Positions 36,157 through 37,393 of a stretch of 37,520 bases of DNA are shown here, piece by piece. Origin of the DNA: an archaeon (lineage in GTDB: Archaea; Thermoproteota; Nitrososphaeria; Nitrososphaerales; Gagatemarchaeaceae); assembly GCA_021848045.1 (NCBI GenBank), contig JAJZNC010000048.1:1-37520 (forward strand), given 5' to 3'. Each line of letters opens with the position of its first letter. The first letter of the stretch is position 1. The position numbers and the translations under genes were made by a program. The notes under the pieces were generated by a model. That model had not been told where the DNA came from. It did no database searches and saw nothing but the letters and a program-made list of their open reading frames with translations.

Positions 36157-36687
36157 CTAGTAGCGGTTGTAGAACCTCGCCATGAGGTTGCGGTTCCAGA
36201 GGCGGGCTGCGATCGCCCCGGCGACCGCGCCGCTCAGGACCCCGAAGACCAGGATCGTGACGTCGGTGACCGGGTCGTGCGGGACCGCCGTGAAGGAGCT
36301 GGGGAACGCGACCACGCTCACGTAGAACGCCCCCACGCCGACCACCCCTGTGCTGATCATCATGCACGCGACGAGCCTGCTCGTCCTCGCCCTGCCGTCC
36401 TGGACCACGCGCAGCTGCGACGCCAGGACGTCGACCAACACCCCGAATAGGGTAGCGAAGGCGAGGTCGACCGGGAAGAATGCGAGCTTGACCACCGTGA
36501 TCAGCGCGCCGCTGACGAAGCCGACGTAGCTGGCCCCCCCTCTCCCCACGACCAGGTAGCTGAGCGCGAGGAGGAGCGACTGGACGACTATCAGGAAGTC
36601 AGAGGTCGGGGCAGGTATGAAGCCGTTGGTGACGAGGATCAGCACGCCGAAGATCGCGCCGAGCGCTATCCTCCTGGAGTTGACCAA
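36157..36687 (-). CDS. ECF-type S-component-like integral membrane protein
   Basis: 176 aa with five to six hydrophobic helices. The start RRIALGAIFGVLILVTNGFIPAPTSDFLIVVQSLLLALSYL, together with GRGGASYVGFVSGALITVVKLAFFP and LFGVLVDVLAS, has the length and helix pattern of substrate-binding (S) subunits of energy-coupling-factor vitamin transporters. Substrate unknown, and no EcfA/EcfT partner is adjacent. The start is TTG 36687, 28 bases after a TATA box at 36711-36718. A 16-bp palindrome (36722-36737) abuts that box and the divergent gene encodes a TetR regulator, so TetR control is likely. Confidence 0.7.
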   Translation of the reverse strand: MVNSRRIALGAIFGVLILVTNGFIPAPTSDFLIVVQSLLLALSYLVVGRGGASYVGFVSGALITVVKLAFFPVDLAFATLFGVLVDVLASQLRVVQDGRARTSRLVACMMISTGVVGVGAFYVSVVAFPSSFTAVPHDPVTDVTILVFGVLSGAVAGAIAARLWNRNLMARFYNRY

Positions 36688-36710
36688 ACGCCACCGCGGG
36701 CTAGGGACAC

Positions 36711-36718
36711 GATTTAAG
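36711..36718 (-). promoter_or_regulatory. TATA box for the ECF-like membrane gene
   Basis: CTTAAATC on the minus strand is centred about 28 bases before TTG 36687. Confidence 0.55.
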
Positions 36719-36721
36719 CGT

Positions 36722-36737
36722 TAACGAACGCTCGTTA
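36722..36737. promoter_or_regulatory. Candidate TetR operator palindrome
   Basis: TAACGA-ACGC-TCGTTA: perfect six-base arms around a four-base centre. It occupies the position immediately upstream of the minus-strand TATA box, where TFB contacts its recognition element. A related half-site pair CGTT-AAT-AACG surrounds the tetR TATA box at 36774-36784. Confidence 0.55.
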
Positions 36738-36774
36738 GGGTCTCCGCCCTCTCCTGCGCGCCCCTTGCACAACC

Positions 36775-36783
36775 GTTAATAAC
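36775..36783 (+). promoter_or_regulatory. TATA box for tetR
   Basis: GTTAATAAC is centred about 27 bases before the ATG at 36806 and is itself flanked by CGTT/AACG arms. Confidence 0.55.
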
Positions 36784-36805
36784 GTTCGGGCGGCCCAACC
36801 GCCGC

Positions 36806-37393
36806 ATGCAGGTCCAGAAGAGCAAGCCGGGTCCGAGCGAGATCCTCGCTGTGGCCGCGCGGCTCTTCGCCGAGAGGGGATACTCCAACGTCTCGATCAG
36901 GGACGTCTGCAAGGAGGCGAGGACGAGCGCCCCGATGATCTACTACTACTTCAAGGACAAGAAGGGCCTCTTCAGGGCCGCCGTCAGCGACAAGCTGAGC
37001 CTCCGGCAGTTCATCTCCGTGCTGCGTGAGACCTCGACCGCGAAGGACGTCCCCAAGGCCGTCTCGTCCTTCTGCAACATCTACCTGAGGTCGTTCCCCG
37101 AGGCGGCCTTCGACCCGGGGCTCTACATGAGGGAGACGGCGAAGCTGGACAACAGGAGCGCCGAGGTGGTAAGCAGGCAGCTGGACGAGGTGCAGACCAT
37201 CGCCACCAACCTGGTCAGGAGGGGGATGGCCTCCGGAGACTTCCGGAAGGTCGACCCGGCGGAGGCGGCGGACTGCCTCATCGGGATGCTCAACCACGTC
37301 GTCTTCCAGAAGATCCACTTTTCAAGGTCCCTCGACATCGAGGGGAAGGGGGAGGCGATAACCTCGTTCTTCCTCAACGCGATGAGGCCGTAG
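36806..37393 (+). CDS. TetR/AcrR-family transcriptional regulator
   Basis: 195 aa. The N-terminal helix-turn-helix (residues 10-57) has the family pattern EILAVAARLFAERGYSNVSIRDVCKEA, then TSAPMIYYYFKDKKGLFRAAV. The C-terminal helical ligand-binding domain contains RRGMASGDFRKVDPAEAADCLIGMLN, typical of TetR proteins. The start is ATG at 36806 on a leaderless message. It is divergent from an ECF-like membrane protein; the shared 118-base region carries a palindrome at 36722-36737 and a second partial dyad over its own TATA box. That suggests autorepression and control of the transporter gene. The ligand is unknown. Confidence 0.93.
   Translation: MQVQKSKPGPSEILAVAARLFAERGYSNVSIRDVCKEARTSAPMIYYYFKDKKGLFRAAVSDKLSLRQFISVLRETSTAKDVPKAVSSFCNIYLRSFPEAAFDPGLYMRETAKLDNRSAEVVSRQLDEVQTIATNLVRRGMASGDFRKVDPAEAADCLIGMLNHVVFQKIHFSRSLDIEGKGEAITSFFLNAMRP

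Follow-up and report, generated by a model that had tools for sequence, protein, structure and literature searches.

A palindrome conserved at an archaeal tetR/ECF S-component-like gene pair recurs at heme synthesis genes and is a candidate TetR operator for heme supply

A divergent gene pair and the palindrome between its promoters

We analyzed a stretch of 37,520 nucleotides (the window) from an archaeal genome of 1.6 Mb in 61 contigs (G000), which by kinship we place within the Gagatemarchaeaceae of the Thaumarchaeota, family f1 of our genome set. Gagatemarchaeaceae correspond to group I.1c (PMC10640624). The window contains two divergent genes and, between them, the following promoter elements:

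36157-36687, minus strand: ECF S-component-like (S-like) membrane protein of 176 aa with a TTG start, assigned by AF2 model, Foldseek and VIA-align
36711-36718, minus strand: TATA-like box of the S-like gene, CTTAAATC (plus-strand reading GATTTAAG), identical in G000, G004 and G007
36722-36737: putative 16-bp operator TAACGAACGCTCGTTA, half-site consensus TAACKARC, a conserved palindrome and the top scorer in 213 kb of its own genome
36776-36782, plus strand: TATA-like box TTAATAA of the tetR gene, whose ATG lies ~27 nt downstream
36806-37393, plus strand: TetR-family regulator of 195 aa (PF00440, E 2.1e-17; predicted fold)

The regulator carries an N-terminal helix-turn-helix (PF00440, 63.1 bits against a cut-off of 24), and its AF2 model (pLDDT 81) has the all-helical TetR fold with a C-terminal ligand domain. 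Against the PDB the model gave 369 matches at E<=0.001, of which the best 50 are nearly all TetR family by title; PfmR and Bacillus FadR are among the best structural matches. Relatives were gathered by searching genome contigs with the TetR alignment. Among 250 genomes of the order, orthologs occur in 40 of the 46 genomes of family f1 and in none of the 204 others. Two residues of the C-terminal domain, C157 and H171, are invariant in 23 aligned orthologs and are candidates only for heme binding.

The product of the minus-strand gene is probably an ECF S-component-like protein, as judged from its AlphaFold2 model (pLDDT 83), in which the six-helix S-component fold is predicted. The best Foldseek rows for this model are ECF S components, at E 0.008 and up, and in VIA-align the best 19 rows are all ECF transporter S chains (Z 15.9-10.4 over 150-165 residues), headed by 5edl at Z 15.9. 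Lnt acyltransferases come after the S components (Z 10.1-8.8), and Z values below ~13 can be generic for helical proteins. Pfam and NCBIfam returned no match with the protein itself, and a PDB sequence search with the S-like profile gave nothing at E<=1. Among 21 S-like homologs, PF12822 matches one (3.7e-6) and TIGR04518 two (best 3.3e-4). EcfT is encoded in the same genome (CbiQ/EcfT, 96.3 bits against a cut-off of 25), next to an ATPase gene whose best match is ECF_ATPase_2 at 219 bits, below the cut-off of 330; both sit away from the S-like gene. The PF00440 match and the S-component fold support the divergent tetR/ECF-like transporter pair that an earlier sequence-only reading of this DNA had proposed. 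The pair is divergent and adjacent in 11 of the 12 genomes of genera g1-g3, our genome included; in the twelfth (G006), 1.4 kb separate the genes.

The palindrome TAACGA-ACGC-TCGTTA described in that reading was verified at 36722-36737, between the minus-strand S-like gene and the plus-strand tetR gene, with symmetry at 14 of 16 positions. It was also correctly described as abutting the transporter TATA box and covering the TFB site: it lies 3 bp from the S-like TATA-like box, on the upstream side, and therefore overlaps the expected BRE, the presumed TFB site just upstream of TATA, with which it shares ~3 bp. The center of this TATA box and the TTG start at 36687 are ~27 nt apart; TATA centers at about this distance from the first codon are expected for leaderless archaeal transcripts. 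We rejected symmetry by itself as evidence, since inverted repeats of this size are frequent in the GC-rich DNA analyzed here. Across the window, perfect 6-4-6 inverted repeats number 21, and 32 16-mers are symmetric at 14 or more of their 16 positions; in the stretches of this genome that we read, 201 of 212,613 16-mers reach 14/16 or better. What distinguishes the palindrome is its sequence and its conservation, and conservation was therefore needed as the test. No Rfam family matched anywhere in the window at the gathering threshold.

Conservation of the palindrome and its recurrence at heme synthesis genes

The S-like gene was found in 22 of 41 genomes, and we recognized the 16-mer by eye at 19 of these 22 promoters, all 19 in family f1; by the same reading it is missing at the S-like promoters of three genomes outside f1 (G030, G035, G039). 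In genera g1-g3, which have the divergent pair, the 16-mer mostly lies just upstream of the S-like TATA-like box. In g4 and g7, where tetR is located elsewhere, the S-like site resembles TAACTAACGTTAAATA, and the TATA box is formed by the right half of the site. The 19 eye-picked S-like sites were the source of a PWM (the G021 site is weak, and the gene there is a fragment). With a symmetric PWM from which close relatives had been omitted, the S-promoter site ranked first in five of five genomes, including G013, whose tetR lies elsewhere. It scored 22.8 bits against 13.1 for the next site in 213 kb of our genome and 24.4 against 7.2 in 38 kb of G007 (G000, G004 and G007 omitted in both tests), 23.8 against 15.9 in 400 kb of G013 (all five g7 genomes omitted), 24.4 against 9.3 in 100 kb of G009 (G009 only omitted) and 24.2 against 12.1 in 100 kb of G001 (G001, G002, G003, G005 and G006 omitted). 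Among 13 further f1 genomes, 11 S-like promoters scored at least 16.3 bits, and two were low (G055, 4.4 bits; G050, 8.2 bits); a broken second S-like copy in G054 (-0.4 bits) is outside this count. In all six genomes outside f1 that have the S-like gene and lack such a TetR, upstream stretches scored at most 8.1 bits and whole fetched loci at most 8.7 (G039 was scored with a 12-site PWM, and its whole locus also with the 19-site PWM). The whole loci of G069 and G078 held nothing above 7.2 bits; because the S-like gene follows another gene there, the stretch before it is no promoter. Conservation in relatives that retain the gene pair had been named as the test of the sequence-only reading, and the palindrome passed it. 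Its notion of a switch at the transporter promoter, where a TetR-type palindrome lies on the BRE and is kept in relatives, is supported as well.

The companion notions, that related CGTT/AACG half-sites flank the tetR TATA box and that binding would block both promoters, found no such backing. Two 16-mers covering CGTTAATAACG (36774-36784) at the tetR TATA score -0.1 and -3.3 bits, so that the CGTT/AACG flanks are unsupported as an operator. Between the operator and the tetR TATA-like box lie 38 bp, and because of this gap and because no second operator scores at tetR, blocking of both promoters is unsupported in this genome. We rejected a second operator at this tetR TATA on its PWM score; conservation there leaves some doubt, since CGTTAATAACGTT is identical in G000, G004 and G007 and may, judging from this conservation, have some additional function. 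Unlinked tetR genes carry a comparable stretch, CAACCGTTAAATA or similar, as their BRE/TATA. We scored the stretches upstream of archaeal tetR genes with the PWM, and autoregulation, as read from these stretches, is not general: strong tetR-proximal sites beyond the S-like one are found only in G002 among linked pairs (21.0 bits near the tetR start) and upstream of the tetR of L213 (15.4 bits).

The palindrome was also sought elsewhere in the genomes, as the sequence-only reading had suggested, and with a positive outcome. A relaxed pattern search covered 46 f1 genomes, in which the reversed control also matches (4 matches in our genome against 7 for the control) and part of the matches was inspected. 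The second recurring site, TAACAAACGTTAAATA, heads an operon of hemA, hemC, hemD, hemB, hemQ, hemL, hemE and hemH in our genome, where hemA (199 against 209.55 bits), hemD and HemQ score below the NCBIfam cut-offs. This is a bacterial-type hem operon in a thaumarchaeon (contig C6; L131 5625-11661, L196 461-2445), and it includes a HemQ/chlorite-dismutase protein. Some 170-230 nt upstream of another ferrochelatase gene, a second hemH, we found the third site, TAACGAACGTTAGATA (C17:820). That gene (L130 1-835) is cut by the contig end, and a nine-codon ORF stands right behind its operator. The skeleton of fixed positions, TANNNANCGNTNNNTA, occurs at five sites in our genome, namely at the S-like gene, the hem operon, hemH and two poor matches. 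By number there is no enrichment over the reversed control (5 against 3 in our genome, 5 against 17 in G001), and the case therefore depends on which genes the sites precede. The unknown, perhaps vitamin-like, ligand of the sequence-only reading can be narrowed on this basis: the hem operon and second hemH that carry the palindrome point to a tetrapyrrole-related one, and the circuit would thus concern heme or tetrapyrrole supply.

Several further sites were noted. The literal palindrome with at most two mismatches is no more common in our genome than its reversed control (10 against 14 strand matches). Besides the site at 36722 it gave four sites: the hemH site at C17:820, two inside ORFs (C14, C4) and one between ORFs (C48). 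The 16-mer TAACGACGTCTCGTTC, which differs from the palindrome arms by one mismatch, stands both at C14:20029-20044 (L002) and at C48:54928-54943 (L003), and the two flanks are unlike position by position (779/3016). Another site, C51:118286 (L298 1287-1302), scores 20.3 bits, lies outside the skeleton and has no evident target, being overlapped only by a 74-aa ORF. Other relaxed-pattern or PWM sites were set aside as lying inside ORFs (G007 C18, G053 C125, G013 L059), upstream of a short regulator-like ORF (G017 C1:385085) or before no clear target (G022 C9, G050 C30). G006 has a site 252 nt upstream of hemC. A TIGR04053 radical SAM gene shares one hemA site with the divergent hemA in G010, carries its own site in G050 and, in G041, stands between a site and hemA.

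Co-occurrence of the site with TetR was assessed in 27 genomes by scoring the 260 nt that precede hemA. The promoters of 14 of the 15 TetR-bearing genomes score 15.3-20.5 bits, and the fifteenth (G006), with hemA near a contig end and the identity of the gene confirmed, has TAGCTAACGTTAAATA, so that all 15 carry a site, against none of the 12 TetR-less genomes (best 5.0 bits). Left out of this count were G028 and G011, whose contigs end near the gene (only ~45 nt upstream of hemA in G011), partial Rossmann-domain matches such as G035, and the f1 genomes G045 and G059, which have hemA. The hemA sites of G053, G050, G041, G049, G056, G046, G043 and G054 had been chosen by a prior pattern match and are likewise outside the 15/15. 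All TetR-bearing genomes belong to one family, and the co-occurrence is thus partly a matter of ancestry. The distribution weighs against a reading in which TetR would control only itself and a transporter for an unknown vitamin, with the hem sites coincidental. Such a local switch would suit the adjacent, divergent arrangement in genera g1-g3; against it stand the hemA counts and the retention of the operator at S-like genes unlinked to tetR in g4, g5 and g7, and we regard it as highly improbable.

Alternatively, the motif might be part of the promoter itself or be bound by a different regulator, such as an activator sitting upstream of BRE. At most targets it touches or overlaps BRE/TATA, where an activator could bind too, and polarity cannot be read from sequence. 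Its presence in the TetR-bearing family and its absence from the TetR-less relatives tested in the order speak against such a reading. A mere TATA variant is also unlikely: a PWM built from the 12 sites of g1-g3 gives 10.9-19.9 for hemA and 23.0 for hemH, while in stretches totaling 613 kb six GTTAAATA elements, the G013 S-like site not counted, score at most 9.1, and three positions reach 12. Further evidence comes from bacteria. In two of two Anaerolineales relatives of the regulator (37 and 34 % identity), the palindrome lies directly upstream of their own tetR, and weaker palindromes precede 5 of 22 bacterial tetR genes. We therefore consider an element unrelated to this TetR very unlikely. 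The Anaerolineales sites score 17.0 and 16.4 bits in L239 (3911-3945) and 25.3 bits in L240 (3889-3904). A polyprenyl-synthetase-like gene follows in L239 (best model family 2 encapsulin cargo prenyl transferase, with a score below the cut-off), and a squalene-hopene cyclase gene and a further ORF follow in L240. These neighbors are isoprenoid rather than heme genes, so that the site specificity would have been kept while the targets differ. The 22 bacterial TetR genes were matched only in the DNA-binding domain, and the palindromes of the five (L242, L259-L262) are TAACNNNNGTTAGTTA-like, score 13.4-20.6 bits and lie within ~100 nt upstream of the matched stretch. This suggests that such palindromes may be an operator type associated with this helix-turn-helix.

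A proposed heme-supply regulon and its alternatives

Taken together, we consider it likely that the adjacent TetR uses the palindrome as its operator, and that this regulator sets heme supply through de novo synthesis and through a solitary ECF S component, whose cargo is probably heme, a porphyrin or a heme precursor. A TetR dimer on the palindrome would cover the BRE, or the TATA box at other targets, and keep TFB/TBP off the promoter. TetR would thereby repress the S-like gene and the hem promoters, that is, those of the hemA operon and the second hemH. The S-like protein would import its cargo by means of the EcfT and the ECF-type ATPase encoded elsewhere. A tetrapyrrole end product, heme or a late porphyrin, may act as corepressor; this is the simplest logic, because both synthesis and uptake would then be turned down at once. 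Heme itself as the TetR ligand is possible but doubtful. A lipid, acyl-CoA or isoprenoid signal, as for regulators of the FadR/PfmR kind, would tie heme supply to membrane or respiratory metabolism, with a ligand other than heme. The structural matches to PfmR and Bacillus FadR point in this direction, as do the Anaerolineales relatives, in which the same operator precedes polyprenyl-synthetase-like or squalene-hopene cyclase genes. The recurring targets in the archaeal family are, however, heme genes and the S-like gene, with no lipid gene behind the inspected sites by eye, and we consider a lipid signal unlikely.

We next consider the substrate of the S-like protein, which is probably heme, a porphyrin or a precursor, judged from the regulon and the gene neighbors. 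The S-like gene is present in 38 of the 250 genomes of the order, and hemA in 200 (E<=1e-25). Outside f1, hemA is missing from 5 of the 6 genomes that carry the S-like gene, compared with 25 of the 198 that do not (Fisher p 2.7e-4, a value that ignores relatedness, the S-like bearers being three genera). Two f1 genomes of 96 and 90 % completeness (G018, G022) have the S-like gene, TetR and the operator, and neither hemA nor hemH was found in them. The regulon suggests that scavenged tetrapyrroles sustain some members of the family. The argument from absent genes is made weaker by the incompleteness of MAGs, and eight f1 genomes have hemA without the S-like gene. In G069 (L285 277-1839) and G078 (L284 1477-3067), where hemA was not found, the S-like gene stands directly behind an AhbD-like radical SAM gene, for which the best model is AhbD heme b synthase at 314 and 300 bits, respectively, under the cut-off of 500. 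In G010 (L142 6055-6903), the S-like gene is divergent from a gene for a Peripla_BP_2 protein with weak matches including BtuF and IsdE, a similarity compatible with B12, heme or a siderophore. Four further genomes (G053, G042, G041, G049) have a similar arrangement by eye, with tetR unlinked and the operator between both genes.

The regulon may be correct and yet the cargo be neither heme nor a porphyrin but, for example, a metal or another cofactor precursor required for tetrapyrroles. In the S-like alignment, none of the invariant residues is a His, Cys, Met or Tyr hinting at heme-iron coordination, which counts against heme as such. The weak family matches of the S-like homologs spread across folate, cobalt and general ECF models, and the divergent Peripla_BP_2 genes would also agree with another cargo. 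On the other side, the S-like gene and its operator persist where hemA was not found (as in G018 and G022), and an AhbD-like gene precedes the S-like gene in G069 and G078; for both observations, tetrapyrrole salvage fits better than an ALA precursor. We regard another cargo as a serious possibility but as the less probable one. A more inclusive proposal, in which one archaeal TetR repressor co-regulates a bacterial-type (HemQ/HemH) hem operon and a heme/porphyrin ECF S component, with salvage in relatives that have lost the pathway, is put forward tentatively and with somewhat less than even confidence.

Relation to known regulators and transporters

Gagatemarchaeaceae of acidic soils reportedly live by aerobic metabolism and possess heme-copper oxidases (PMC10640624), and heme supply should thus be important to them. 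If the proposed regulon is true, archaeal TetR regulators and archaeal ECF transporters would both gain a new specificity, and an orphan archaeal ECF S component would gain a concrete substrate class. The regulon also offers a few DNA fragments for assays with a single purified protein. Each element taken singly, be it the TetR regulator, the ECF S component or the heme regulon, is of a known kind; their combination and the archaeal setting are new to us. Among the matches listed in a full-text literature search, we found no TetR regulator of heme synthesis in archaea.

We compared the proposed system with known ones. FhtR of Enterococcus faecalis and HrtR of Lactococcus lactis are likewise TetR-family regulators in heme homeostasis, and FhtR binds 14-nt palindromes (PMC7858072). 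These regulators control the heme exporter hrtBA, whereas the archaeal sites found here accompany genes for heme synthesis and for a putative importer. Heme releases FhtR from the exporter promoter and so derepresses it (PMC7858072); the corepressor logic proposed here would be the opposite. No entry named HrtR is present among the best 50 fold matches or the 60 listed sequence matches of our TetR, which excludes nothing, as many entries are generically named. FadR of Sulfolobus acidocaldarius is likewise an archaeal TetR-family repressor and has only four genomic sites, which are semi-palindromic (PMC6449355); it governs fatty-acid degradation in response to acyl-CoA, whereas our sites are found at heme genes.

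Sets of bacterial hemA, hemE, hemH and hemQ genes are controlled by HrrSA/ChrSA and others, but these are two-component systems (PMC10991733). The same review of coproporphyrin-dependent heme regulation, whose main text nowhere contains the term TetR, places archaea under the siroheme route (PMC10991733), in contrast to the bacterial-type hemQ and hemH in the operon described here. The S-like protein shares its predicted fold with RibU, ThiT, FolT, BioY and PanT (VIA Z 10.4-15.9 over 150-165 residues), but at only 9-15 % identity, and no curated model gives its substrate. A precedent for the proposed substrate class is LhaSTA of Staphylococcus lugdunensis, a heme-specific ECF system (PMC7299338). 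LhaSTA is bacterial and iron-regulated, whereas the S-like protein is archaeal and is likened to it here in the proposed substrate class.
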